Shown here: one piece after another, positions 39,542 through 56,000 of the stretch
Layout: each line of letters starts with the position of its first letter
How positions within the stretch are numbered: position 1 is the stretch's first letter
Notes under the pieces: generated by a model
What the model was told of the DNA's origin: nothing
What the model saw: only the letters and a program-made list of their open reading frames with translations
The model's database searches: none
Position numbers and translations under genes: made by a program
Assembly: GCA_016650295.1 (NCBI GenBank)
Contig: JAENWA010000114.1
Span: 62,001-126,000, forward strand
Reading direction: 5' to 3'
Length of the DNA stretch: 64,000 bases
Origin: Desulfuromonadales bacterium
Lineage (GTDB): Bacteria > Desulfobacterota > Desulfuromonadia > Geobacterales > Pseudopelobacteraceae

Positions 39542-42500
39542 TTACGCCGCCGCCTTTAGCTCAATATCTTCCAGCAAATGAATAATCTTCGTTGCACCAA
39601 CATCCCCAAAAACCCCATCCAGACCTTCATTGTGAATGTCGGTAAAGGGTGGCTCATACAGCAGGCCGGGGTTCATGGTGCCGTTCTGGGTCAGGTAGCT
39701 GACCACCTGGTCGATGAACCTGATCTGGGTGGCCGAGTAGGTCGAGTTGTGCAGGAACTCGGCAAAGGCCTCGCTGGCTGCCCCGCGATCAAGACCTACA
39801 AGTTTGCGGATAAACGCCCCGAGGCTTTGCTGGTGGCCAAAAACCTTCTCGAAGCGCTCCCGATTGCCCACCTCTTCTGCTGTGAACAGCAGGCGCTCCA
39901 ACTCCTCCAGGTCCTGCCGGGTGATCTGTCGATTCATGCGCAACTTGTTGATGGTGATGTGGTTGGCATGGTCGCGGATGAACCGTTCTACCTTCAACCG
40001 GTACTGGCGCATTTCCTCGGCGCTGGCATAGCCCGGCACGTAGATCTCCGCATGCTCACCGATGGTGTCCTCAAAGTCGGTATAGACGATGGTCGCCTCG
40101 CTCTTGTCCAGGAATTTGATCAGCTCCCTCAGGCGCAGGCGCAGATCCTCCAGCAGCGGCAGGGTGATACCGGTCCACCAACTCTCGGTCTGCAGATCCA
40201 AGATCAGCTCCATCTGCTGGGCCACCATCGGGATAGTTCCTTTTCCCTCCAGTCGGGCGGCGATCTCCATAACCTTGTCCCGGTTGCGGGCAAAGGAGCT
40301 GGATTTCTCCAGCAGTGCCAACTGTAGATTCAGCAGCAGCAGGTCGAAGCGCTTGGCAGTCTCGTCCTTCTGGGGGAGTTCCACCGGCAGTCCTGCCAGG
40401 TGGAGTCTCACTTCAAGCTCATCCTCGGCACTCAGCCTGGACCAGTGATCTCTGACCGCGAATTTCTCCAGGTGACGGCGATGGGGCCGGACGATGAAGT
40501 TGTTCGGGTTCATCAGGGTCACCTCGCCATGCAGGGTATCCTCTATGCTCCCACGCAGACGCTGTACTCCATCTCCCGTCGGTATGTCCGGCTGTTGCAG
40601 CTGCAGCAGCAGGTTCAGCCGCTGTTTGAAGATCTTCTTGCCCAGCGATTCCTGGCTTGCGCCTTCGATACCTTCCGGGTTTTCGGCAAAGAACTCGAAG
40701 TTCTGGCAATAGTCGAAGACGTAGAAGTTCTGCTTATCCTGACCCGGTCCGAACAGGTCTTTGCAGAGCCGGGTGCCGCGTCCCATCATTTGGTGGAACT
40801 TGGTCTTGGAGCGGACCAGTTTGAAGAAGACCAGGTTGACGATCTCCGGCACGTCGATGCCGGTATCCAGCATATCCACCGAGATGGCGATGATCGGGTC
40901 GTCGTCCTTCTGGGAGAAGTCCTCAATCAGAGTCTGGGCGTAGGTCTCATAGTTGTCGATCACCCGGCAGAACTTGCCCTTCAGGTGGGGATAGCTCTTG
41001 TCGAAGCGCTCCTGGATGAAGAGGGCGTGGTTGTGGTTCTTGGCAAAGATGATGGTCTTGCCCAGCCGGTCGCCTCCCGCCACCTTGACGCCATAACGCA
41101 TCAGGTGCTCCAGCACCTTGTCCACCGTGTCCTCGTTGAACAGCCAGTTGTTTAGCGCCGACGACTCAATCTTCTCCGGCATGCCGCCGTTTTCCTCGTC
41201 CCAGAATTTCTCCTCGTACTCGGCCTGTTCCTCCGGGGAGAGTTCGTTGTACTTGACCCCTTCGCGCTGGAACTTGAGCGGCACGGAATGCGCCCTGGGC
41301 GGCACCAGGAAGCCGTCCGCCACCGCCTTTTCCAGTTCGTAATAAAAGGTCGGGACACCCTTCTCCAGCTCGAAGAGCGAGTAGGTGTTACGGTCCACTT
41401 CGGAGCGCGGCGTGGCGGTCAGGCCAAGCAGCAGTGAGTCGAAATACTCGAAGATGGCGCGGTACTTCTGATAGACCGAGCGGTGGGCCTCGTCGATCAC
41501 GATCAGATCGAAATGGCCGGGGCTGAAGCGCTTGTTGCCCCCCTTGGCGTCGTCGATGCAGTTCATCATGGTCGGATAGGTGGAGAGCACAATGCGGCTG
41601 GTGGTGTCGTCCTTAATCCTGGTGATGTTGACCGGGCTGGAGTGGGGCAGGTGCTCCTTGAAGGCGTTGCCGGCCTGGGTCAGCAGTGCGGTCCGGTCGG
41701 CCAGGAACAGCACCCGCTTGATCCAGTTGCACTTTTGCAGTAGTTCGATCAGGGCGATGACGGTGCGGGTCTTGCCGGTGCCGGTGGCCATGACCAGCAG
41801 CGCCTTGCGCAGCTTGCGCCGCTGGAAGTCCTCGGCGGTGCGGCGGATGGCCTCGTGCTGGTAGTAGCGCTCCACGATGGACTTGTTGATGGTCGCGCTG
41901 GTGATCTCCCGGATGCTGGTGCGGCGGTTGATCAGCAGTTGCAGTTCGTCCTTCTTGTAGAAGCCCTGTACCTTGCGGGGCGGATAGTTCAGGTCATCCC
42001 AGAGCCAGGTTTCGTAGCCATTAGTGAAGAAGATGATCGGGCGTTGCCCCTTCATCCGTTCCAGGCAGTCGGCGTACAGCTTGGCCTGCTGCTGGCCGAT
42101 GCGCGAGTCCTTCCTGGTTCGTTTGGCCTCCACCACCGCCAGGGGTAGGCCGTCGTCGCCCCACAGGACATAATCGACAAAGCCTTCGCCCTTGTCGTTG
42201 GGCATGCCGGTCACCGGGTACTCCAGCACATCCGGGGCCGTCAGGTCCCAGCCCGACTCCTTCAGCAGCAGATCGATGAAGTAATCCCTTGTTTCCGCCT
42301 CGGAATAATCATGGTCGTCGGGGGTCTGGCTGTTGCGTTCCTTGTATTCCTGAATCCTGGCCTTGAGAGCGGCGATCTCTTCTATCGTCCTGGCCAGCTC
42401 CGCTTCCTTGGCGGCCAGCCGGTCGTCCTTATCCGATTGTTCGGCCTGCAGTTTGGCCAGCTGTTCGGTGTTGCGGTCGGCAACGGCGCTATCCTTCTGC

Positions 42501-42922
42501 GGAATGCGGGTGATGTCGAAGAGCGGCTTGCCGATGGCTGCCGCGGACGGGGAATAGCTGCGGGCCAGCCAGTAGAGGACGTGGAAGAGTTCTTTGAGGG
42601 TGTGGAGGGAATCGCTGCTGCTGATCGGTTTGTCGCTATGGACGGCCAGGTTGCCGATTTTCTGGATAGTGAGGATCTTGGGGAAGAGGCAGGGTTCCAG
42701 GTTCTCCCGGAAGGTCGGTTCGTGGATCAAGGCGGCCAGGTTATCGGCATAGGGTTGCTTGAGGTAAGAGTCATTGGCATAGAGCCACTTCACTGCCCGT
42801 TCCAATGAGCGCCGCGCATAGAAACAACTGGTCCGCGGGGCACTATTGACGTTCTGCTCGGCTTCGCGGGCGGTGTCGAAGAGTTCGGGCCAGTCGGTTT
42901 TCAGGAACGTGAAGTTGGACAT
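39542..42922 (-). CDS. hsdR: Type I restriction enzyme R subunit (HsdR)
   Basis: HsdR_N nuclease region (VVEAKRTRKDSRIGQQQAKLYAD), Walker A MATGTGKTRTVIAL, Walker B VIDEAHRSVY. Confidence 0.95.
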   Translation of the reverse strand: MSNFTFLKTDWPELFDTAREAEQNVNSAPRTSCFYARRSLERAVKWLYANDSYLKQPYADNLAALIHEPTFRENLEPCLFPKILTIQKIGNLAVHSDKPISSSDSLHTLKELFHVLYWLARSYSPSAAAIGKPLFDITRIPQKDSAVADRNTEQLAKLQAEQSDKDDRLAAKEAELARTIEEIAALKARIQEYKERNSQTPDDHDYSEAETRDYFIDLLLKESGWDLTAPDVLEYPVTGMPNDKGEGFVDYVLWGDDGLPLAVVEAKRTRKDSRIGQQQAKLYADCLERMKGQRPIIFFTNGYETWLWDDLNYPPRKVQGFYKKDELQLLINRRTSIREITSATINKSIVERYYQHEAIRRTAEDFQRRKLRKALLVMATGTGKTRTVIALIELLQKCNWIKRVLFLADRTALLTQAGNAFKEHLPHSSPVNITRIKDDTTSRIVLSTYPTMMNCIDDAKGGNKRFSPGHFDLIVIDEAHRSVYQKYRAIFEYFDSLLLGLTATPRSEVDRNTYSLFELEKGVPTFYYELEKAVADGFLVPPRAHSVPLKFQREGVKYNELSPEEQAEYEEKFWDEENGGMPEKIESSALNNWLFNEDTVDKVLEHLMRYGVKVAGGDRLGKTIIFAKNHNHALFIQERFDKSYPHLKGKFCRVIDNYETYAQTLIEDFSQKDDDPIIAISVDMLDTGIDVPEIVNLVFFKLVRSKTKFHQMMGRGTRLCKDLFGPGQDKQNFYVFDYCQNFEFFAENPEGIEGASQESLGKKIFKQRLNLLLQLQQPDIPTGDGVQRLRGSIEDTLHGEVTLMNPNNFIVRPHRRHLEKFAVRDHWSRLSAEDELEVRLHLAGLPVELPQKDETAKRFDLLLLNLQLALLEKSSSFARNRDKVMEIAARLEGKGTIPMVAQQMELILDLQTESWWTGITLPLLEDLRLRLRELIKFLDKSEATIVYTDFEDTIGEHAEIYVPGYASAEEMRQYRLKVERFIRDHANHITINKLRMNRQITRQDLEELERLLFTAEEVGNRERFEKVFGHQQSLGAFIRKLVGLDRGAASEAFAEFLHNSTYSATQIRFIDQVVSYLTQNGTMNPGLLYEPPFTDIHNEGLDGVFGDVGATKIIHLLEDIELKAAA

Positions 42923-43049: not shown

Positions 43050-44036
43050 CTAGTCATTGCTCCGGTTTATCAGATTGACAATCACCTTGACGATGGTTTC
43101 TTTCTCCTCCGGCCTGCTTTCAGCAATCAGCAAGGTCAACGCCACCAGGGCGTTATCAGCCAGACGCTTGCTGCCGTCGCCTCGATAGAGAATAGCGTTC
43201 ATGCCAAGGAAATAGATGAACAGGGCGGCGGCAATCCGCTTGTTGCCATCACTGAATGCGTGGTTTTTGACGACAAAGTAAAGGAGGTTTGCTCCCTTTT
43301 CTTCTACGCTCGGGTAGAGTTCCTCGCCTCCGAAAGTCTGATAGATGGTTCCAAGGGCACTTTTGAAGCCCTGATCCTTTTCGATGCCGAACAGGCCGTC
43401 AAATTCCCCTTTCATGGAGGCAACAATCCCGATTGCTTCGTCGTAGTTAATAACGTGCAGCGCTTGTCGGGTAGTTTCCTCAATGGCTAAGGTACCGTGG
43501 TCGTAACGATCCAATAGGTTCAGGGCATAAGCGTAGTCGGTGATGACCCGCAGTACATCCTTGCCGGTTTCGCTGACCAGTTCCTGATTGGCCAGGGTGC
43601 GGGCCAGTAGTTCTACAGTCTGACGCATTTCGGCCAGTTTTTCGGACTGATCACGGAAGCGCTGTTCGTTGATTGAGTATCCCTTGACGATGTAGTCGCG
43701 CAGAACACGCGTGGCCCACTGGCGGAATCGGGTTGCCTGATAGCTGTTGACCCGGTAGCCTACGGCGATTATTGCATCGAGATTATAGTATCTAGTCTTA
43801 TAGTTTTTGCCATCGGCGGCAGTTGTTTCCAAAATGGAAATAACTGCCGCCTCTATCAACTCACGAGCAGAAAATATGTTTTTCAGATGTTTGTTAATTG
43901 CAGGGACTTTGACAGAAAATAATTCGGCCAATTGTGCTTGAGTCAGCCATACCGTATCGTGATCAAGGTGGACTTCGAGGGAAGCTGCGCCGCTTTCAGA
44001 CTGATAGATGACAATGTCGCTTTTTTCAGCACTCAT
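43050..44036 (-). CDS. RhuM-family protein with C-terminal Fic/Doc domain
   Basis: N-terminal RhuM: WLTQAQLAELFSVKVPAINKHLKNIF...YYNLDAIIAVGYRVNSYQATRFRQWATRVLRDYIVKGY. C-terminal Fic/Doc motif VVKNHAFSDGNKRIAAALF. Confidence 0.9.
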   Translation of the reverse strand: MSAEKSDIVIYQSESGAASLEVHLDHDTVWLTQAQLAELFSVKVPAINKHLKNIFSARELIEAAVISILETTAADGKNYKTRYYNLDAIIAVGYRVNSYQATRFRQWATRVLRDYIVKGYSINEQRFRDQSEKLAEMRQTVELLARTLANQELVSETGKDVLRVITDYAYALNLLDRYDHGTLAIEETTRQALHVINYDEAIGIVASMKGEFDGLFGIEKDQGFKSALGTIYQTFGGEELYPSVEEKGANLLYFVVKNHAFSDGNKRIAAALFIYFLGMNAILYRGDGSKRLADNALVALTLLIAESRPEEKETIVKVIVNLINRSND

Positions 44037-44314
44037 GACGTTGATCCCCGTTGAACGGTATTACCGCTGTGGACGGCCTGGTTACCGATTTTCTGAACTC
44101 TTTCCATTTTGGAAACAGTTGCCGATGCATCAAGCTCTCCGCTTCCCAGTATATTACGGACATGCTTCGAGACAGCAGGAACATTCACGTCAAACAGTTC
44201 TGCAAGCTGAGACTGTGCAAGCCAGTTTGTATCTTCATGAAGGCTTACCTCAAGGCGAGTAGTGCCATCCGGACTCTTGTACAGGATGATTTCATCGGGA
44301 GATTGGCGTATCAT
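44033..44314 (-). pseudogene. Chimeric remnant: RhuM N-terminus joined to an hsdR-like fragment
   Basis: MIRQSPDEIILYKSPDGTTRLEVSLHEDTNWLAQSQLAELFDVNVPAVSKHVRNILGSGELDASATVSKMERV (RhuM-like), then QKIGNQAVHSG, matching QKIGNLAVHSD of intact HsdR, then an early stop. Confidence 0.75.
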
Positions 44315-44655
44315 GGGAAACTCCTGCGAGTTCGTGCAAAAAATGCAGCAACTGAAAATAGTGGATCTATTTGTCGAGAAGTTACGGGGATATGGACCGG
44401 ACTGATGTTCTCGCAGTAGATTCTTTCCCAGGTCCGATAGAGTCCTGAATTGTCGGCGTAGGGTTGCTTGAGGTAGGAGTCATTGGCATAGAGCCACTTC
44501 ACCGCCCGTTCCAGCGAGCGTCGGGCGTACAACCGGTGGCTGAGCTGTAGGGTGAGCGGAGTCGAGCCCGAAGTCGAAGCCACGTTCTGCCCGGCTTCAC
44601 GGGCGGTTTCGTACAGTTCGGGCCAGTCGGTTTTCAGGAAAGTGAAATTACTCAT
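44311..44655 (-). pseudogene. Truncated duplicate of the hsdR 5' end with a REP-like insertion
   Basis: MSNFTFLKTDWPELYETAREAGQNVAS...YARRSLERAVKWLYANDSYLKQPYADN matches the N-terminus of HsdR (39542..42922) apart from the inserted STSGSTPLTLQLSHRL; unrelated sequence follows ADN. Confidence 0.88.
44535..44583. repeat. REP-like palindromic insertion in the truncated hsdR copy
   Basis: GGTGGCTGAGCTGTAGGGTGAGCGGAGTCGAGCCCGAAGTCGAAGCCAC; same core GAGCGGAGTCGA as the elements in hsdM. Confidence 0.7.
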
Positions 44656-44821: not shown

Positions 44822-46219
44822 CTACTTCAGTATTTCCCAACGCCCGGCTTTAGTAGCGCCAGTGTGTTTCAAGACACCTTTGGCTTTAAGCTTTTTTATG
44901 TGATAGTAGACGCCATCTTCAGTCAGCCCCATCTGTACTGCCAGCTCTTTCTGGGTGATAACAGGATTTGCTGCAAGTATTTCAATAACAATTTTTTCAG
45001 CGGTTCTCAGTTCCTTATTCGTAGTTTCTTCCGTAGTTTCTTCCGTAGTTTCTTCCGTAGTTTCTTTGATAGTTCTATGGCGTTTCTTTGGCGTTTCTTT
45101 GGTGTTTTCTCCCGTAGTACCCACAGTTTCTTCTTCCTCCACGAACGAAGGCCGGTCAAAGCTGGCGATAAAGATATGGGAGATTTCACGAAATTTGACG
45201 TCCGGGGCGTTCTTCAGAATAAGCGGCATGCCGCGCCCCCATGCCTCTACCATCTGGATACGGCGCAACAAATTGGCGATGAGCGGATTGCGGCGTTTGG
45301 AAACATTTCCGTGCAGCATTTTTTCGATGGTCATGTCGTCATACAATCCACCGGGGCTGCGAATTTCGACACGATTTTTGAACACGGCAATCTGCACATA
45401 GTCCGGATCACGGTAGTCACGATGACAGAAGGCGTTGATGATGGCCTCCCGCATGGCTTCGCTGGATATTTCCGGCACATCTTCGCGGTAGAGCCCCTTC
45501 AGACGCATGCCGATGTGGATGTTCTTGAGGATATACTTCTGGGCTTCCTCGATCAGTTCAAGCATATCGCCGTCGAAGTCGTGACGGTCGATTATGGTGG
45601 CGCTATCGGTTGTGGCAAAGACGGCGCAGCGCAGTTGCATGGGGGCGGTTTTGGCAAAAAACAACGATGCTGCATTGAACAGCCGCCCCTCCTTTGTCAC
45701 GCCAAGCTTTTCCAGCGCATTCGCTGGCGAGTCCCAGGTGAGCCCGGCCCGTTCGACAAAACGTTTGAGTTTGACATCGTCCAGATCTTCAAACGCGACT
45801 GTACTGGTTTCGCTATCCCAGTGGAGAAGATCACGGTTCTTGGCAAGGATAAGATTTTCAAGCTCTTTGGCGCTGATTTGCCGGTCTTCATCGGCAACAC
45901 GCATGTAGGCTCTGCCGTAGGCGAAATAGGGGGCTTCCCTGCCCTTGAAGGTAACCTTTATGCAGGCCACTCCGTCGCGGCTGACAATTTCAACAGTGGG
46001 GTAAATTCTCGGCTCGATATGCGCGGCAATGGACTGGGAGATGTCCCGCAAGGTCTTTTCGCTGGCATCAAGCCCGACCGCCTTGCCATCATTGCGTATC
46101 CCGAACCAGAGCTCGCCATGCTTGTGCTTGTTCAAAATGGCAACAATGGAAATGAGCCCTTCTTTCAGCTCGGCAAGGCTCTTTTTGTATTCGATTGTTT
46201 CGGTTTCGGTTTTGGTCAT
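44822..46219 (-). CDS. AlbA_2 / Schlafen-like (AAA_4, COG2865-type) ATP-binding protein with C-terminal winged helix
   Basis: ETIEYKKSLAELKEGLISIVAILNKHKHGELWFGIRNDGKAVGLD...INAFCHRDYRDPDYVQIAVFKNRVEIRSPGGLYDD...RRNPLIANLLRRIQMVEAWGRGMP; C-terminal HTH VITQKELAVQMGLTEDGVYYHIKKL. Confidence 0.88.
   Translation of the reverse strand: MTKTETETIEYKKSLAELKEGLISIVAILNKHKHGELWFGIRNDGKAVGLDASEKTLRDISQSIAAHIEPRIYPTVEIVSRDGVACIKVTFKGREAPYFAYGRAYMRVADEDRQISAKELENLILAKNRDLLHWDSETSTVAFEDLDDVKLKRFVERAGLTWDSPANALEKLGVTKEGRLFNAASLFFAKTAPMQLRCAVFATTDSATIIDRHDFDGDMLELIEEAQKYILKNIHIGMRLKGLYREDVPEISSEAMREAIINAFCHRDYRDPDYVQIAVFKNRVEIRSPGGLYDDMTIEKMLHGNVSKRRNPLIANLLRRIQMVEAWGRGMPLILKNAPDVKFREISHIFIASFDRPSFVEEEETVGTTGENTKETPKKRHRTIKETTEETTEETTEETTNKELRTAEKIVIEILAANPVITQKELAVQMGLTEDGVYYHIKKLKAKGVLKHTGATKAGRWEILK
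45021..45068 (-). repeat. 12-bp tandem repeat (4 units, last one diverged), encodes EETT/KETT
   Basis: gtagtttcttcc x3 then gtagtttctttg; translated KETTEETTEETTEETT. Confidence 0.9.
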
Positions 46220-46326: not shown

Positions 46327-49300
46327 TTAATGCCCCTTCTCTTTGTCATCGTTTTTAGGCAACTCCTCTTCAATCAACTTAGTTGCCTTTTCAACAAGTT
46401 TAATATTCGGATGCTTTGCCCCCGTGGAATGCTTTGCAACAGACATACCTGCCAATCGTAGCAACTGTTGTCGAGTCCTCTCAGTGGAAAAACTGGCATT
46501 GTATTCATGCCGGAGTGCTGCGTAAACCCTACTCAAATAAAACGAATTTTTATGTGTTCGCACTACAAAACTTTCAATCTCCTTCTCCCAACCAGGAGGT
46601 CTTTGCATTGCCATTACCAATAGAACCATCATTTCTCCAAGTGTTCCTTGGTTGGCTTGAACATAGCCGCTCAATAACGCACCCATCTTTTTGGAAAATA
46701 GATCTTCTTGAAACCACTTCACGACGTTATCAGCTAGTACAGCCATGATAGCTTCCCATCGTTCTCTATCGGTTTTTTTATTATCAAAGTCCTTTGTCAA
46801 ATAGAAACCCATCCCCTCAAAATTTGCACTTCTTCGTTCGGCTAAAAGCGGAGAGAGAATAACCAAAATTTGACAGACCCGAATCCAACAGCGTAGAACC
46901 TCATTAAGCAATTCATTCTTTAAACTTGGCAAGACATGATCACTATTTCGTAGCGCACGAGCGGCCCCCTTCATCGTTTGAACCATTTGCAAGAGCGTTG
47001 ACTCGTTAATAAACTTTGCCAACTCCTGGTTATATGGTTTCCCACGATTATAACCTTTATCTGCTATCGCATCTTTAATGGCTGCGGGGAGGGATGAATC
47101 AGCCACACTTTCGGCAACATGGCGTTCCATATCCTCTAAAGACTTTTCACTCGGCTTCCATTGCGCATCCTGATATGGATTAAACGTTTCGGTAATTCCT
47201 GTCCGGTTCAAAAAATCAGAATTCATTCGCTTTAAATCCTCTGTTAAGCGACTAACTGCATCCGACCTCCTCCTGTCAATGCCTGTATAAAATTCGATGA
47301 TCTCAGGAATTGCTGAGTATCGACCTTCACTGAGAATAAATTCTGCAAATGTTGAATCATGGTGCATCCGATGTGCTGCGAAAAAATAGAGCCAGTAACT
47401 AAACCGAAATTCAAACATAAAACCCTTACGGATTAGGATGTTTTCAGAGACTAAAAATGCGAAAAGCACTTCACGATCCAAATCGAGTATTTGGGTTTTA
47501 CAATATTCCTGCACCTTGCTGTAAAATTCATTTTTTGTAAACGAGGCCTTTCTGGAGCGAATGAGCCACTCACAAACATAACCAAGGGCGTATTCACAGT
47601 CTTTTAAGTCGGGTCTTGTCGCATATCGCGGAATTTTGTCAAACTGATAAAACAGTAAGTAAAGAACTCTACCAATCATTTCTGTTCTATTAACAGGACT
47701 ATCATCAAAGGATTGCTCTAAAAGCTTTAGAATTAATAAACAGTTTAGTGGGGTTCTATGGATATTGAGAGCATCAATGTCATCTATAAGTTTCTTTGTT
47801 ACCAGATTATCATCCAGAGAGCTCAAATCTTTGATGTAGTCAACAACGAGACCCCGAATACTCGCTCGCGTTAGTGCCCAGAGGTAAAGAGCTTCAAATT
47901 CTGTAACTTCATCCGATTCAATACTGTTAGCGATTTCTGAGCAATCGTCGAGACCATGAAGAATCACAATTGGAATGCTTGGAAATTCAGCTTGGATCTC
48001 ACGTAACGCACGTTTTGCACTCTTATCATTCTGCCAATTATCAAGGAGGATGCCAGCTAAGGCCGCACGATCAATGTTTAGCTCTGTGCACCTATCAACA
48101 ATATGATTGATTACTCCTTGTTTGTGGGAAGGCATTGAAGAAGTATCAACCATCGCAATTGCAGTACCGTTGGCAGCTTGACGATGATGTTCTAATGCAA
48201 TGAAACGACCAATACAGGTTAGTCCAAATTGTTTAGGCGCTCGAATGATGCAAGAACGCAAATCTAAGCTGATGTCACTAGGACTTATCATTACAATAGC
48301 TTCTTTTTCGTTTGTGGTTTCTGGCTTATTTGCTAAATCTCTTTCGACCCATATCTGTTTTTTTGAAGAATAACAGGTAATCGCCTCATCAAACTCAGCC
48401 TGAAGCACAGCTCGTGTATCAATAGGCCGCGAAATAGGAGGCATAACTTCTATTATTTCGTCATTATAATTGCAGGCAGAAAACTCTCTTGTACCCGTAT
48501 CATTGTCAGCCAAAGCAGTTCCAAGCACAAACTTATGCGTCTGAGTCCATTGCCTGTAGAGGACTTCAATTTCCCCACTGCTAGTCTCAACACTTACGAA
48601 CGAATAGCCCAATAGATCTGATTTTTTTGAAAACAATTGAGGAGCAGCGCAATGAACAAAACCACCCATCCCTCGCGACGAGAAAGTAGCCGTTCCCTGG
48701 TGTCTATGGCCGGACAGAACTAATGTGAATTTTTCTGCGATGATATTCTCAAGTTCATTCTTTGCCCAATCAACTAACCAATCTAAAGGGTGATGCATAA
48801 CCAAAACTCGAACGTTAGAATTATTTTCAGCCAGCCATTTTTGGAGGGAGCGAGTATCTATATGAAGTCGTTCTTTGTCTGAAAAAGGTTTACCAGAAGA
48901 GTCCTCCAATCCTCCAAGCGAACAAAGAGCGGTATTGAGGCAATACACACCAATTCCGTTATTCAAATCCCATCCAGTGCCCCCCAAGTGTCCCGCGCAA
49001 CAGGTATGATGTGCAAACTTCGCTTCACAAGAAACATAGTTTTTGAAATTCTCTGCAAAAAACATTTTTGATAACTGGGGAAGAGTGTCATTGAACGTTC
49101 GCTCATCTTTGATGGCGGTTAAAGCACCTTCCTGTATGAGAACCAATGGTTTGAGCGCACTTCGTGATATATCGTGATTTCCTGGCACACTGATACGCCG
49201 TTCACGTGGCAACCCAATTGAATCTAATACTTTTGAGAATTTCCCCAGAAAAGCAGCGTACTGTGCGTCGTGTTCACCCTTTAACACGAGATCTCCTGAA

Positions 49301-49437
49301 AAAATCAAATATACACTTTCAAACTTACGTATCTGAGAAGTGATGTCTTCGAAGAACTTATTGCAAACCAACTCTGATTCTTCATGCCATTCTGGTCTGT
49401 AGTGAAGGTCGGAAATATGAAGGAATGTATGTTTCAT
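46327..49437 (-). CDS. Calcineurin-like metallophosphoesterase fused to a large STAND/NTPase-like C-terminal region
   Basis: Metallophosphoesterase motifs FLHISDLHY, SGDLV, GNHD, MHHP and SGHRHQG in the first ~300 aa. The remaining ~700 aa include RAPKQFGLTCIGRFIALEHH (degenerate P-loop-like) and PIVILHGLDD (Walker B-like). Confidence 0.8.
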   Translation of the reverse strand: MKHTFLHISDLHYRPEWHEESELVCNKFFEDITSQIRKFESVYLIFSGDLVLKGEHDAQYAAFLGKFSKVLDSIGLPRERRISVPGNHDISRSALKPLVLIQEGALTAIKDERTFNDTLPQLSKMFFAENFKNYVSCEAKFAHHTCCAGHLGGTGWDLNNGIGVYCLNTALCSLGGLEDSSGKPFSDKERLHIDTRSLQKWLAENNSNVRVLVMHHPLDWLVDWAKNELENIIAEKFTLVLSGHRHQGTATFSSRGMGGFVHCAAPQLFSKKSDLLGYSFVSVETSSGEIEVLYRQWTQTHKFVLGTALADNDTGTREFSACNYNDEIIEVMPPISRPIDTRAVLQAEFDEAITCYSSKKQIWVERDLANKPETTNEKEAIVMISPSDISLDLRSCIIRAPKQFGLTCIGRFIALEHHRQAANGTAIAMVDTSSMPSHKQGVINHIVDRCTELNIDRAALAGILLDNWQNDKSAKRALREIQAEFPSIPIVILHGLDDCSEIANSIESDEVTEFEALYLWALTRASIRGLVVDYIKDLSSLDDNLVTKKLIDDIDALNIHRTPLNCLLILKLLEQSFDDSPVNRTEMIGRVLYLLFYQFDKIPRYATRPDLKDCEYALGYVCEWLIRSRKASFTKNEFYSKVQEYCKTQILDLDREVLFAFLVSENILIRKGFMFEFRFSYWLYFFAAHRMHHDSTFAEFILSEGRYSAIPEIIEFYTGIDRRRSDAVSRLTEDLKRMNSDFLNRTGITETFNPYQDAQWKPSEKSLEDMERHVAESVADSSLPAAIKDAIADKGYNRGKPYNQELAKFINESTLLQMVQTMKGAARALRNSDHVLPSLKNELLNEVLRCWIRVCQILVILSPLLAERRSANFEGMGFYLTKDFDNKKTDRERWEAIMAVLADNVVKWFQEDLFSKKMGALLSGYVQANQGTLGEMMVLLVMAMQRPPGWEKEIESFVVRTHKNSFYLSRVYAALRHEYNASFSTERTRQQLLRLAGMSVAKHSTGAKHPNIKLVEKATKLIEEELPKNDDKEKGH

Positions 49438-49462
49438 GATGGAAGGTTTCCTTTCGGTGAAT

Positions 49463-50665
49463 CTAAGCTATCCGCGTAAGATTTAATTGCTTCCCTTTAA
49501 AGGCACGTTGTAGAAGGGAGTTAAAGAGTGTGTTCAACTCCACCAGCGCTTCGTTTTGGGAGGTTTTTAGTTTCTCAACGGCAGCAACACGACAGGCGAA
49601 TTCACACTGTTCTTCCATTGCTGGCAGTGGAATGAGAATTTGCTGAATTTGATCCAGATGGAGGTCGGGAACACCGATGCCTTTGATTCTTTTATCTGCC
49701 TGCCTCTTTATGGCTTTTGTTCCCAATACAGCTTTCAAATAATTAGAATCTACCAGCTTTCTGTCGGGTTTGATAAGACAAACACTTACATAAAGTGAAA
49801 ACTCTTGGTCGGTATCAACAATAGCTGGACGACCGTAGGTAGCGCCGACTTTTGTGTAAAGAATATCGAACTGTTCAGCTTTACAACGTTTTGTAAACAT
49901 CTGATGATCTTCCAGACTCACAAATTTACAGTTGTCGAACTTCAGAGCGCCTGTTGTTATGTCTTTAACTGAAATGAATGGTACACCTGTCGAGGTATAG
50001 TTTGGTTTTTGGTGAACTCCGTCGGTAATTCTTGTCGTAATTTCCGATAGCTGAACAATTTTTACGCCCTTCGGATTCGTTTCTGGATCGCCAAACATGT
50101 CCAAAAAAGTCGAACTTAAAAGTTCCTCTGCTAACCGGACCGCCTCCTGCCGCTTGCGCCGGATAGAATCAGCCTTGTCGAGGATGGCAGCGATGCGCTT
50201 TTGTTCGGGGAGTGGGGGGAAAGGGATTTGAAGCTCTTGAAATCGTCCTTTATTGATTATTGGAACTGTTGTTGAGGGAGCAAGATGGATAAGAAGTGGT
50301 TTCAGGGTCTGGCAGTAATGGAAGCCATATCTCGGGGAAACAATTTTTTCATCAAAAACGACCGAATTGATTTGTTGATTAGTCGCTAGCCGAGTACCAG
50401 CGATGCCAATTTTTCCAAGAGAACCAATACAACAGACCATAATTGAATTTTCTGGAATTACCCTGACTTGCTTTGCTCCAAGTTCTGTCAAAGTTACAGG
50501 AGTCTTGGTTACAGGGACTCCACCTTTTAATTCAGTTGGGGTAACAAATGGAATTTCTCCACCAAAATAATCATCGCGTATTGTTGATGGTGTCGAGCCT
50601 GTGACTACTTCCGCAACTTCACAGAATTTCATCATCTTCCAGTGAGTTGGAACGTTTCTGTTCAT
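49463..50665 (-). CDS. hsdS: Type I restriction enzyme specificity subunit (HsdS)
   Basis: Two TRD-like halves: IPFVTPTELKGG...IPFPPLPEQKRIAAILDKADSIRRKRQEA and VPFISVKDITTG...ILIPLPAMEEQ. Confidence 0.95.
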   Translation of the reverse strand: MNRNVPTHWKMMKFCEVAEVVTGSTPSTIRDDYFGGEIPFVTPTELKGGVPVTKTPVTLTELGAKQVRVIPENSIMVCCIGSLGKIGIAGTRLATNQQINSVVFDEKIVSPRYGFHYCQTLKPLLIHLAPSTTVPIINKGRFQELQIPFPPLPEQKRIAAILDKADSIRRKRQEAVRLAEELLSSTFLDMFGDPETNPKGVKIVQLSEITTRITDGVHQKPNYTSTGVPFISVKDITTGALKFDNCKFVSLEDHQMFTKRCKAEQFDILYTKVGATYGRPAIVDTDQEFSLYVSVCLIKPDRKLVDSNYLKAVLGTKAIKRQADKRIKGIGVPDLHLDQIQQILIPLPAMEEQCEFACRVAAVEKLKTSQNEALVELNTLFNSLLQRAFKGKQLNLTRIA

Positions 50666-52215
50666 CCCACCATCCCCTTCAACTCCGCCAACTCCCCGGC
50701 AATCTCCCGCTCCAACGCCTCCAACCGGGCAATGATGACCTGCGGCGGCTCGTAGGCCAACTCCTCATGCTCTACCTTCTTGTAACGATTGATGGAGAGG
50801 TCGTACTTGTTGTCGCGGATCTCCTGCACCGGGACGAGGAAGGATTTACCAGTCCGCCCTTCGACTCCGCTCAGGGCACCGCCCTTCTCCCCACTCTGCA
50901 ACTTAGCATCACCGGTGGCTGAGCGGAGCCGAAGCCACGAAGCCAGCACATCGGGGATATCGTTCTGCTCCACCGGATTGCGCTTGTCATCCAGCGAGAA
51001 ACCATCGGTCTGCATGTCGTAGAACCAGACGTGATCCGTGCCGCCGGAGTTGGTCTTGGTAAAGATCAATATTCCGGTGGAGACGCCCGCATAGGGACGG
51101 AACACGCCGGAAGGCATGGAGATCATCGCCTCCAGCTTGTGGCCGTCCACCAGGATCTTGCGCAAGTCCAGATGCGCCTTGCTGGAACCGAACAGCACCC
51201 CGTCCGGCACGATCACCGCGCAGCGCCCGCCCGGCTTCAACAACCGCAGCATCAGGGCGATGAACAGCAACTCGGTCTTCTTGGTCTTGACCGTGCGCAA
51301 AAGGTCCTTGGCTACGGTCTCTTCATCCAGCGACCCCTTGAATGGCGGATTAGCCAGGATCAGGGTAAAGGCATCGGCAATGTCTCCGGCGCTGTTGGAG
51401 AGGGCGTCACGAGCCTCAATGGCAGGATTCTCCACGCCATGCAGCATCATGTTCATGCTGGCGATGCGCAGCATGGTGGAGTCGAAATCGAAACCGTTGA
51501 AGAGCTTGCCGTTGAAGTGGCGCTTCAGTTCTTCGTTGTGGAACAGGTCGGCATGTTGCTCACGCAGGTATTCACCGGCCGCCACCAGGAAGCCGGCGGT
51601 GCCGCAGGCCGGGTCGCAGATGATGTCGTCGGGGCGGGGCTGCATCAGCTCCACCATCATCTTGATTATATGCCGGGGGGTGCGGAACTGGCCGTTTCTA
51701 CCGGCGGTGGTCAGCTTGGAGAGCATGTACTCGTACAGATCGCCCTTGGTGTCCCGGTCTTCCATCGGCACCTGGCTGATCTGCTCCACCACCCGCTCCA
51801 GCAGGCTGGGGGTGGGGATCATGAAGATGGCGTCCTTCATGTGGCGGGCGTAGGCGGTATCCAGGCCGCCGTGCAGGTTCTTGATGAAGGGGAAGACCTC
51901 CTGGCTGACCACGCGAAACATCTCCTCGGCCTCAAACTCCCGGAAGCGCGACCAGCGCAGATGATCCTGACCTGCGGAGAAGATCGGCTCCTTGATCGGC
52001 TTGCCCAGTCGGTTGGCCTGCTTCTCCCGCGCCGTGTGGATGTCATCCAGCCGCTTGATGAACAGCAGGAAGGAGATCTGCTCGATCACCCGCAGGGGAT
52101 CGGAAATCCCGCCGGACCAGAATGCATCCCATATTTTGTCGATCTTTGATTTGTTTTCACCGGTCAGCACGTGGGTGGGGCTCCTTGGTAGATAGTGGAT
52201 TGTGCTGTGCCGCAT
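50662..52215 (-). CDS. hsdM: Type I restriction-modification methyltransferase (HsdM)
   Basis: GQFRTPRHIIKMMVELMQPRPDDIICDPACGTAGFLVAAGEYL; LANPPFKGS (NPPF). 4-bp overlap with hsdS. Confidence 0.96.
   Translation of the reverse strand: MRHSTIHYLPRSPTHVLTGENKSKIDKIWDAFWSGGISDPLRVIEQISFLLFIKRLDDIHTAREKQANRLGKPIKEPIFSAGQDHLRWSRFREFEAEEMFRVVSQEVFPFIKNLHGGLDTAYARHMKDAIFMIPTPSLLERVVEQISQVPMEDRDTKGDLYEYMLSKLTTAGRNGQFRTPRHIIKMMVELMQPRPDDIICDPACGTAGFLVAAGEYLREQHADLFHNEELKRHFNGKLFNGFDFDSTMLRIASMNMMLHGVENPAIEARDALSNSAGDIADAFTLILANPPFKGSLDEETVAKDLLRTVKTKKTELLFIALMLRLLKPGGRCAVIVPDGVLFGSSKAHLDLRKILVDGHKLEAMISMPSGVFRPYAGVSTGILIFTKTNSGGTDHVWFYDMQTDGFSLDDKRNPVEQNDIPDVLASWLRLRSATGDAKLQSGEKGGALSGVEGRTGKSFLVPVQEIRDNKYDLSINRYKKVEHEELAYEPPQVIIARLEALEREIAGELAELKGMVG
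50856..50877. repeat. REP-like palindrome inside hsdM
   Basis: GCCCTTCGACTCCGCTCAGGGC; translated on the minus strand as ALSGVEG within hsdM. Confidence 0.75.
50915..50938. repeat. REP-like palindrome inside hsdM
   Basis: GTGGCTGAGCGGAGCCGAAGCCAC; translated on the minus strand as WLRLRSAT within hsdM. Core shared with 50856..50877 in opposite orientation. Confidence 0.75.
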
Positions 52216-52548
52216 TCAACAGACATTGGCGGTGAGGTGATCCAGTTGTTCATTCAGCCAACTGTTGATACTTTCGCCTGACTGCTTGGCCGCCACGTAC
52301 ACCTTGCGGTGCAGATCCGGGGTCAGGCGCAGCATGAACTTGCCGGTGAACGGTTTTTCAGGAGCCTGGCCAAGTTGGACACAGAAATCAAGATAATCAT
52401 CCACCGACTCCCTGAAAGCCTGCTTGATTTCGTCAACCGTCTTACCTTGAAAAGTAATAACGTCGCGTAGACCGATAACCTCACCATGAAAGATTTCCGC
52501 CTCATCGTCATACTCAACTCTTCCGGAATAGCCTTTGTACTGCATCAT
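52216..52548 (-). CDS. hicB: HicB-family antitoxin with C-terminal RHH/Arc-like domain
   Basis: YKGYSGRVEYDDEAEIFHGEVIGLRDVITFQGKTVDEIKQAFRESVDDYLDFC; GKFMLRLTPDLHRKVYVAAKQSGESINSWLNEQL. Confidence 0.93.
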   Translation of the reverse strand: MMQYKGYSGRVEYDDEAEIFHGEVIGLRDVITFQGKTVDEIKQAFRESVDDYLDFCVQLGQAPEKPFTGKFMLRLTPDLHRKVYVAAKQSGESINSWLNEQLDHLTANVC

Positions 52549-52799
52549 GGACGTATACCTCCTTCTTCCAGAAAACGTCTGACTGACTTCACCGCGCCTT
52601 TATCGGTTTCTTTCTGCGGATGAGGCCGGTGAAACGTGGCTTTGATTCCATTCAAAAGAAACCTGACGCGGGAACCGTTCCCTTCGTATCGCTCTGCACC
52701 AAGCGCTATGAATAATGCCTCGATGTCATCCCAGATAATGCTGGAGTTCACCGGGTCATGGAATATTGCTTTCAGCGTTTTGCGGTGCTTGCTGGTCAT
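52545..52799 (-). CDS. hicA: HicA-family toxin
   Basis: KHRKTLKAIFHDPVNSSIIWDDIEALFIALGAERYEGNGSRVRFLLNGIKATFHRPHPQKETDKGAVKSVRRFLEEGG; overlaps hicB by 4 bp. Confidence 0.93.
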   Translation of the reverse strand: MTSKHRKTLKAIFHDPVNSSIIWDDIEALFIALGAERYEGNGSRVRFLLNGIKATFHRPHPQKETDKGAVKSVRRFLEEGGIRP

Positions 52800-52901: not shown

Positions 52902-53028
52902 ATTCCAGTTCAAAATCATGGATGAAATCAAGGCGGCGAGGATTGAGGCGACGAATGCGTACAGATACGTACGTTGAGGCGCCGAAGACGAGCCAACGAA
53001 GATAGCGTCTTGATTTGGAATTGGAATC
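52902..53028. repeat. ~127-bp imperfect palindromic intergenic repeat
   Basis: Left ATTCCAGTTCAAAATC...AAATCAAGGCG complements right CGTCTTGATTTGGAATTGGAAT; centre GTACAGATACGTAC. The 3' 41 bp recur at 63036..63076. Confidence 0.7.
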
Positions 53029-53045
53029 GGGTATAGTCTGCACCT

Positions 53046-56000
53046 ATGCCAACTTTCACCGTCCATACCAGCAGCTCCCTGACCCGCCTGGCTGCGGCCC
53101 TGGCCGGGACCTTGGCAGCGGATCCGGCCCCGCCGCTGGTCCGCGAACCGGTGGTGGTGCTCAGTAACGGCATGGGGCGCTGGCTCTCCATGGAACTGGC
53201 CGCCACGGACGGCGTCTCGGCCGGCATGGAGTTCAGCTTCCCCAACGACACGCTGGATGCCTGTTTCCGCAGCATGATCCCCGGCCTGCCCGAGTCGTCC
53301 CCCTTTACCCTGGACACCATGGCCTGGCGCATCGCAGCGCTTCTGCCCGCGCATCTGCAGCGCCCCGGATTCGAGAGCATCGCCGGCTACCTGGGGGACC
53401 GCGGCGACGACCGCCGGCTGCTGCAGCTCTCCCGCAAACTGGCCGACACCTTTGACCAGTACACTATCTTCCGGCCGCAGATGGTCCTGGGGTGGGATAA
53501 CGGCCAGGGGAGCGACTGGCAGGCCGAACTATGGCGCTCACTGACAGCGGGCTGCGGCGGCCTGCACCGGGCGGCCCTGTTGCGCATATTCCGGCAGCGG
53601 CTGAACTCCGGCGTTGCTGAAGATTCTCTCCCGCGGCGCATCAGCCTGTTCGGCATCTCGTTCCTGCCCCCCTTCCACCTGGAGTTCTTTTCAATCCTGT
53701 CCCGAGTTACGCAGGTGGATTTTTACCTGCTCAACCCCTGCGGCAGCTACTGGGGCGACATCTTTTCCGAACGGCGCAAGGCCGAACTAGCCCTGAACCC
53801 GGACCTCCCGCCCGAGGCCCTGGAGTACTACGAAACCGGTAATCCGCTGCTCTCGTCGCTGGGCACACAGGGTCAGGAGTTCTTCAGCCTGCTGCTGGAT
53901 ATGGATACGGACTGGAATGACCTGGACAGTGTCCGGACGCCACAGGCCGGCGGTCTGCTGGCCACGATCCAAAGCGATATCCTGGAGCTGAGCAACCGTG
54001 GCGTCACGACCGGACGGGCCACGATGGCGGACAACGATCTTTCCCTGCAGATCCACTCCTGCCATGGTCCGCTGCGCGAGATGGAGATTCTCTACGACAA
54101 TCTGCTGCGCATGTTTGATGATCATCCCGACCTGGAACCGCGCGACATCTGCGTCATGACGCCGGATATCGGCGCCTGTGCCCCCTACATAACGGCCACC
54201 TTCGGCACGCGCTGCGGCGGACGCCCGGCCATACCCTTCACCATCGCCGACCAGAGTCGGCGCCGGGAGAATCCGGTCCTGGATACCTTTCTGAAGATCC
54301 TGGAGCTGCCGGCCGGCCGCTTCGGCATCAACGGCATGCTGGAGGTACTGGAGTGCCCGCAGGTCATGGCCCGTTTCGAGATCACGTCCGACGAGCTGGA
54401 TCGTATCCGGGAGTGGCTGCAGTCCAGCGGGGTGCGCTGGGGCATCGACGGGACCCACCGTGCCTCGCTCGGTTTCCCGGACTTCGGCGAGTTCAGCTGG
54501 CGGGCGGGTCTGGAACGTATGCTGCTCGGCTATGCCCTGGCGCCCGACGGCGACCGTCTGTTTGCCGGGATCATGCCCTGCGACAACATTGAAGGACGTC
54601 AGGCCCTGGCCCTAGGCAAGCTGGCCACGTTCATCAACGCAGCCGAAGGCTTGGCTGACGCTCTTTCGGACCGCCTGACTCTGACCCGCTGGGCGGACAC
54701 ATTGACAACCATCACGGACCGGATGCTCAGCCCGCTGGACGGCAACGATACCAGCTGCGTGCCGCTCCATGCCGCCTTCCAGAGTCTGCGCGAATCCGGG
54801 GAACGCTCCGGATTTGACGCCCCCATCGGGCTGGAGGCGGTGCGGGACTGCCTGACGGGTCTGCTGGATGAAAGCGGTGAATCCTTCGGTTTTCTGGGGG
54901 GGCGGGTCACCTTCTGCGCCATGCTCCCCATGCGCAGCATCCCGCTGCGGGTGGTCTGCCTGGTCGGCATGAATGACGGCATTTTCCCCCGCAACCAGCG
55001 TCTGCCGGCCTTCAGCCTGATGAACGGTGCCCGCAGACGGGGCGACCGCTCTATCAGGGACGAGGACCGCTACCTGTTTCTGGAGGCGCTCCTGTCGGCG
55101 CGGGATACATTCTACATCAGCTACACCGGCCAGAATGACCGGGACAACAGCAGCCTGCCCCCCTCGGTGGTCGTGGCGGAGCTGCTTGATTATGTCCGGC
55201 GCGGATTCGGGCGGGCAGAGGCCCCGGATACGCCGCCCGAAATCGTTACCCGCCACCGTTTGCAGGCCTTCAGCAGCGAGTACTTTTCCGGCGACCAGGA
55301 CGCCCGGCTGTTCAGCTACTCAACGGAATACCGGGATGCCCTGGAATCCGGCCGCGCCTCCGGCCGGCCGAGACGTGAATTCATCCACAACCCCCTGGAG
55401 GATGATCCGCTCCTGACGCAAGAGCTGGATCTTCAGCAGCTGACCCGCTTCCTGGGCAATCCGGCCAGGACCTTTCTGTCCCGCAGCCTGGGCGTGCTCC
55501 CCTACAACCTGGAGGATGAGATCGAGGAACGGGAGCCCTTCGCCCTGGAGAGCCTGGCCGGGTATGCGCTTCGGCAGGAGCTAACCGGGAGACTGCTCAA
55601 CAACGAATCCTGCGACGGCCTGTATGAATCCGTCCGGGCCCGCTCGATCCTGCCGCCGCTGGCTGCCGGCAGGATCGCCTTCGATGCCGCCCTGACCGAA
55701 TGCAGCGAATTTGCCCGCCTGGTTGCAGCACAGCTTTCTCCGGCTCTGGAGCCGTTGCCGTTCTCACTGGACCTGCACGGCGCCACCCTGAACGGGGTGC
55801 TGAAGGAGCTGCACCAGGACCGACACCTGCGCTGGCGTTGTGCCACCATGAAAGGCAAGGATCGCCTGGCGCTGTGGTGCGAACACCTGATCCTCAACAC
55901 TGTTCAACCGGAGGGCTGCCCCCGTGAGAGCCGAATGGTCTGCAAGGATGTAACCGTTACCCTGCAACCTCTGGATAATGCCCGCGAGCTGCTGGCCGGA

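Follow-up and report, generated by a model that had tools for sequence, protein, structure and literature searches.

A Metallophosphoesterase-NACHT Gene in a Type I RM Operon

The window analyzed here, a 64,000-nucleotide stretch of DNA from a Desulfuromonadales bacterium, carries on its minus strand an intact open reading frame that starts with an ATG at 49437, contains no internal stops and ends with its stop codon at 46327, bearing out the 1036-aa reading frame of the original prediction. The gene lies in an operon with the order hicA, hicB, hsdM, hsdS, receptor gene, AlbA_2/recG-C gene, RhuM-Fic gene and hsdR. The gene and its RM context comprise:

46327..49437, minus strand: whole gene, metallophosphoesterase-NACHT with a lysine-less P-loop, 1036 aa (open reading frame and translation, NF053861, PDC-S60)
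49447..49454, minus strand: ribosome-binding site AAAGGAAA, 9 nt before the ATG (sequence)
49463..50665, minus strand: HsdS, context, directly upstream of the receptor gene with a 25 nt gap (PADLOC Specificity_I, E 4e-82)
50662..52215, minus strand: HsdM of the type I RM operon, context (PADLOC MTase_I, E 5e-187)
39542..42922, minus strand: HsdR of the type I RM operon, context (PADLOC REase_I, E 4e-183)

The GC content around the gene is ~40–45%, compared with ~64% in the 53000–56000 flank, and this low-GC stretch together with the seat in a type I RM operon suggests that the gene is likely horizontally acquired cargo. Genes for a HicA toxin and a HicB antitoxin (52216–52799, minus strand) head the operon, and directly downstream of the receptor gene lies a gene for a protein with AlbA_2/Schlafen, recG-C HATPase_c_4 and winged-helix regions (44822–46219, minus strand); AlbA_2 also occurs in 2 of 95 immediate neighbors of homologs elsewhere, among the matches listed. 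Two short open reading frames at 44033–44655 (minus strand) resemble a degraded older copy of the operon, with 44311–44655 sharing 61% identity over 90 aa with the start of HsdR and 44033–44314 sharing 50% identity over 64 aa with the start of the RhuM-Fic protein.

Domain Architecture and Predicted Fold

Within the protein, the following domains and motifs were assigned (all on the minus strand):

48697..49428, minus strand: calcineurin-like phosphoesterase, predicted effector, aa 4–247 (PF00149; metal-site motif residues; Lmo2642, 2xmo)
46330..48405, minus strand: shared receptor module, aa 345–1036, present behind several other N-terminal effector types (alignments A1, A2, A4, A6; AlphaFold)
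48211..48240, minus strand: degenerate Walker A APKQFGLTCI, aa 400–409, with L406 in place of lysine (alignment)
48040..48054, minus strand: Walker B GILLD, aa 462–466 (alignment, secondary structure)
47944..47973, minus strand: PIVILHGLDD, aa 489–498, beta-4, sensor-1 position (secondary structure order, alignment)
47740..47769, minus strand: LNIHRTPLNC motif, aa 557–566, at a putative NACHT GxP-like position (alignment)
47377..47544, minus strand: winged-helix domain, aa 632–687, nSTAND_NTPase4 (PF24406)
46423..47370, minus strand: conserved all-helical C-terminal half, aa 690–1005, presumed sensor or lid (conservation, AlphaFold)

The N-terminal Pfam match to PF00149 (aa 4–247, E 1.5e-11, 45.5 bits with the cut-off at 21.5) comes with the full motif set of a calcineurin-like metal site, as had been predicted, and D10, H12, D49, N87, H88, H215, H216, H244, and H246 do not vary among the 22 aligned metallophosphoesterase members. 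Profile comparison matches this domain to Lmo2642 (2xmo, E 3.8e-10), a cyclic nucleotide phosphodiesterase, and Foldseek matches of the full-length model include YydB (an integrative model entry) and the E. coli 5'-nucleotidase UshA. Cleavage of nucleic acid or a nucleotide by the phosphoesterase is plausible.

A PDB sequence search with the single protein returned chance matches only. The AlphaFold and Foldseek comparison proposed earlier for the C-terminal region gave an NLR NACHT fold: the AlphaFold2 model of the module, built with the family alignment from which one plasmid-derived row was left out, has a pLDDT of 84.7 and a pTM of 0.80, and its top PDB matches in Foldseek are NLRP14, the NLRP3 NACHT and NLRC4 (E 2.5e-7 to 4e-7), with NLRP7 next and NOD2 lower in the list. 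TM-scores over whole proteins are modest (~0.2–0.5), as expected for flexible multi-domain chains, so that the assignment covers the fold class and not the detailed geometry. PF24406 matches at aa 632–687 with 29.5 bits, just over the cut-off of 27, and is found in 57 of 60 modules; the helical region EFRFSYWLYFFAAHRM lies at the end of this winged helix, where Pfam places nSTAND_NTPase4. The proposed fusion of a phosphoesterase to a degenerate STAND region is thus supported by Pfam, by the NACHT/NLR fold and by homology to DS-8 (see below), and the C-terminal half is, as judged from alignment and model, a predicted STAND (NACHT) module with a lysine-less P-loop. Median pairwise identity is 0.357 in the C-terminal half compared with 0.341 in the NACHT part, and conservation on a par with the NACHT is unusual for a sensor; this conservation is partly ascertained, since the search patterns were taken from the C-terminal half.

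A P-Loop Lacking the Walker A Lysine

Motif search found no canonical GxxxxGK[ST] anywhere in the 1036-aa protein, in line with the original prediction, which had also placed the P-loop correctly: RAPKQFGLTC follows beta-1 of the predicted NTPase fold and aligns with P-loops of DS-8-like relatives, among them GVKEAGKT, GGKEFGKT, GSKESGKT, and APKDMGKT. The canonical GxxxxGKT stands at this place in five of six DS-8-like outgroup proteins, the sixth having GRT. The reading of PIVILHGLDD as Walker B was mistaken, as this is the following strand, beta-4 (aa 490–496), and Walker B is GILLD ending at D466.

The Walker A lysine is absent from all 68 readable P-loops of the clade (74 loci; L078 was read by eye), which divide into 60 GLT, four GLS, two GAT, one GQT and one GST, and no displaced canonical Walker A was found by motif search in any clade module. 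The clade pattern is [AS]P-x-[QE]-[FY]-G-L-T; among aligned members G405 is invariant, T407 is Thr or Ser and L406 is Leu in 51 of 54, while D466 is invariant (54/54) and is followed mostly by Ser or Asn rather than an acidic residue. In the LNIHRTPLNC motif, N558 and R561 are likewise invariant. The invariance of G405 and D466 indicates that the P-loop site is under constraint, fixed rather than decaying. Because the lysine is lacking in 68 of 68, we regard the module as a NACHT-fold relative and, by motif, not as an active-site-competent NACHT NTPase, its presumed NTPase incompetence following from this one residue. Outside the clade, a DS-8-like phosphoesterase-NACHT protein on a Sinorhizobium plasmid (L096, 2932–6156) has the P-loop SPQEYGRT, with arginine in place of lysine, so that lysine loss is not strictly limited to the clade; this protein is possibly an intermediate or a case of independent loss.

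Relationship to DS-8 and PDC-S60

DS-8, from DefensePredictor (Science 2026), is the closest validated relative, a single-protein metallophosphatase-NACHT defense in which protection is lost on mutation of the metallophosphatase site and likewise of the NACHT site (PMC13092281). The window protein has the same plan, one polypeptide with an N-terminal calcineurin-like metallophosphatase followed by a central NACHT, and the NF053861 DS8_antiphage profile aligns over aa 7–693 (E 3.8e-39). Its full-length score of 134.2 bits falls far under the curated cut-off of 790, which makes it a relative of DS-8 and not a member. The two differ further in that the DS-8 match ends at aa 693, leaving the C-terminal third of the window protein unaligned, and in that DS-8 depends on a residue described as critical to the ATPase activity of its NACHT, whereas the window clade is without the Walker A lysine. 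The NACHT portion of NF053861 alone matches the SIR2, protease and DUF4062 versions of the clade (E 1.9e-7 to 4.9e-15). DS-8 was not found in the E. coli genomes searched through a Klebsiella relative.

Similarly, PADLOC matches the window protein to PDC-S60 (E 7e-52), mainly over the phosphoesterase part (best stretch aa 6–302 of a 1027-position model); the relative L074 matches over 5–838. PDC-S60 (PDLC05050, PDLC05051) is a candidate system, by prediction only, that consists of one DUF4062-front and one phosphoesterase-front model, both of which match clade members, whereas the SIR2 and protease versions of the clade match weakly or not at all. To call the protein uncharacterized was therefore an overstatement, as DS-8 and PDC-S60 already cover its kind, and the clade to which it belongs is a distinct sister clade.

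One Module, Interchangeable Effectors

A plain genome scan with the full-length protein recovered no relatives, and a genome-wide scan with the C-terminal module alignment as the query recovered 71 loci. The module was first met behind DUF4062 in Chryseobacterium and behind SIR2 in genome G221, in plasmid and genome searches, and its hosts include Bacteroidota, Pseudomonadota, Planctomycetota, Verrucomicrobiota, Chloroflexota and Thermodesulfobacteriota, among others. The scan of viral contigs and a phage collection found no relatives, and the gene has accordingly not been seen on phages. In a tree of 63 full-length modules (one duplicate genome, L024/L055, among them), the module follows DUF4062 in 34 cases, the phosphoesterase in 17 and a longer phosphoesterase subfamily in seven; rarer fronts are a trypsin-like protease (two), SIR2 (one), a TIR-like domain (one) and one that is unresolved. 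Effector type changes nine times on the tree over eight groups, outgroup included, and the swapped effectors retain trypsin triad motifs and SIR2 motifs. The proteins with the trypsin-like front, from Shewanella and Oceanobacter (L040, 9398–12034; L044, 3828–6464), have the triad motif set intact, and L040 has no PADLOC model match. Broken copies were found at L003, L088, L090, and L094.

Such exchange of fronts on one module of ~690 aa corresponds to the receptor-effector modularity already seen in STAND proteins. The effector-sensor scaffold proposed earlier gains support from the presence of SIR2, DUF4062 and protease on the same module elsewhere.

Genomic Neighborhoods

That the family might be tied to type I RM was suggested by three of the first four loci, which lay just behind hsdS; this idea was dropped, as no more than 7 of the 74 loci have type I RM genes within ~10 kb, and the argument drawn from RM context in the original prediction was correspondingly too strong. 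With the window excluded, type I RM is near 6 of 73 loci compared with ~0.56 expected (~0.8% by chance), a roughly ten-fold excess. The background was taken from HsdM_N counts in 59 genomes, all from the phylum to which the window belongs, and is only approximate for other phyla. Non-defense genes make up most of the immediate neighbors, among which only HsdS recurs (3/95, among the 25 commonest families listed). Members directly behind hsdS are L061 and L002, both with DUF4062, and L023, with SIR2. The closest relative, L025 (68% identical module), has no type I RM detected within flanks of >8 kb on each side, and L026 (54% identical module) has none in flanks of only ~4.1 kb and 0.5 kb. No NTPase or cyclase partner recurs among the 95 immediate neighbors, among the matches listed, and such heterogeneous surroundings fit a self-sufficient single-gene system and speak against a fixed partner. 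Beside the SIR2 version in L023 (13107–16676), an AAA ATPase precedes a DUF4276-like gene, an arrangement that looks PARIS-like, and there is also an AbiE-like pair; the locus resembles a dense defense island, with all of these assignments made by eye only.

Comparison With Other Systems

STAND modules with eroded NTP-binding motifs have been described: iSTAND, iSTAND2 and one inactive nSTAND2 partner are predicted invader sensors inside multi-gene systems (PMC8195603; Kaur et al., 2021). By their description, iSTAND and iSTAND2 share with the clade the eroded motif, the predicted role in immunity and the variable effectors (PMC8195603). The iSTAND kinds, however, sit in ternary systems with MoxR-vWA or in two-gene systems, together with an active NTPase, whereas the clade has its effector fused, and no MoxR-vWA partner genes occur among the immediate neighbors of homologs, among the matches listed. 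Plant NLRs with degenerate P-loops are also known and have been discussed as helpers (PMC3478704), and LypA of the CARD-NLR-like Lyp system is without Walker residues yet may bind ATP (PMC13236601).

DUF4062, the front of 34 of the 63 tree modules, is in Swarozyc a TIR-like NADase that carries out abortive infection (PMC13174449, preprint). Sensing in Swarozyc falls to a small auxiliary domain, a winged helix that is bound to the phage portal; the clade has the NACHT module instead. Animal NLRs (NLRP3, NLRC4, NOD2) share with the module its predicted NBD-HD1-WHD-HD2 fold; the clade differs from them in having no leucine-rich repeats, ~10% identity and a lysine-less P-loop. In the literature searched, of incomplete coverage, no paper was found on this particular clade of lysine-less single proteins. 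The concept of an inactive STAND is already known, and the new part is the lysine-less single-protein sister clade.

Proposed Mechanism and Alternative Explanations

We consider it fairly probable, by analogy, that the window protein is an NLR-like receptor which, as DS-8 does, works against phages as one protein, in the manner of abortive infection, and that its switch is independent of the lysine and its effector cleaves nucleotides. A defense role is suggested by the homology to DS-8 and by the kinds of effector that have been swapped in; an altered switch, the phosphoesterase as effector and the C-terminal half as sensor are what we infer for its parts. The C-terminal half (helical domain 2 and the conserved helical domain) would sense an infection cue, either directly or via a component of the host; the central NACHT-fold module (NBD, HD1 and winged helix) would serve as a conformational or oligomerization switch; and the metallophosphoesterase, freed from autoinhibition, would kill or arrest the cell, most likely by cleavage of nucleotide or nucleic acid. 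Unlike in most DS-8-type relatives, the lysine is replaced, mostly by leucine, in the whole clade, with the flanking Gly and Thr and the Walker B Asp kept, and this replacement suggests that switching probably proceeds without ordinary lysine-dependent ATP exchange and hydrolysis. More tentatively, and at somewhat less than even likelihood, the clade may be a widespread pseudo-NACHT lineage that stands alone and steers an interchangeable NADase, protease or phosphoesterase, either with no ATP exchange or through a ligand that does not require the lysine.

Other explanations assign the protein a different task. The phosphoesterase may be a regulator that degrades a signaling nucleotide, in the way of human SMPDL3A or of the class III cyclic nucleotide phosphodiesterases, gated by the NACHT module and tuning another immune or stress pathway; the profile match to Lmo2642 (2xmo, E 3.8e-10), the structural match to UshA and the similarity to SMPDL3A to which the DS-8 authors point (PMC13092281) all favor this, but the same module carries NADase-type and protease effectors, which are executioners elsewhere, and no cyclase recurs beside the gene among the matches listed, so that we regard such a role as unlikely. 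The position 25 nt behind hsdS in the window, and that of L061 and L002 (DUF4062) and L023 (SIR2) directly behind hsdS, would suit a guard that, in the manner of the anticodon nuclease PrrC, monitors HsdM/HsdS of its type I RM operon and fires once a phage anti-restriction protein has disabled them. Constant hsd linkage was not found, however, with type I RM within ~10 kb of 7 of 74 loci and none detected around L025 despite its >8 kb flanks, and the module shows the same conservation outside RM operons, which makes a guard of this sort improbable.

It is about as improbable that the protein is an inactive helper that needs an active STAND or AAA+ partner, as do iSTAND/iSTAND2 or P-loop-less plant helper NLRs: although inactive STAND modules have so far been found in multi-component systems (PMC8195603) and a helper role has been considered for degenerate-P-loop plant NLRs (PMC3478704), the 95 immediate neighbors include no recurrent NTPase partner, among the matches listed, and receptor and effector form one polypeptide. 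Finally, the lost Walker A lysine and the four broken copies (L003, L088, L090, and L094) could be taken as signs of a decaying pseudo-receptor without function. Open reading frames are nevertheless intact in several phyla, with G405, D466, N558, R561 and the metal-site residues invariant, a conservation pattern that largely refutes functional decay and leaves it barely credible.

Implications for NACHT Activation

ATP binding via the P-loop lysine is considered a requirement of immune receptors of the NLR and STAND kinds. A clade that spans multiple phyla and combines swappable effectors with a fixed lysine-less P-loop would be a compact system for a direct test of nucleotide-independent NACHT activation. 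Moreover, the same module bears a TIR-like NADase in some members, for which NAD is a likely readout, and a phosphoesterase in others, and comparison of the two could help to reveal the substrate of the DS-8-type phosphoesterase.
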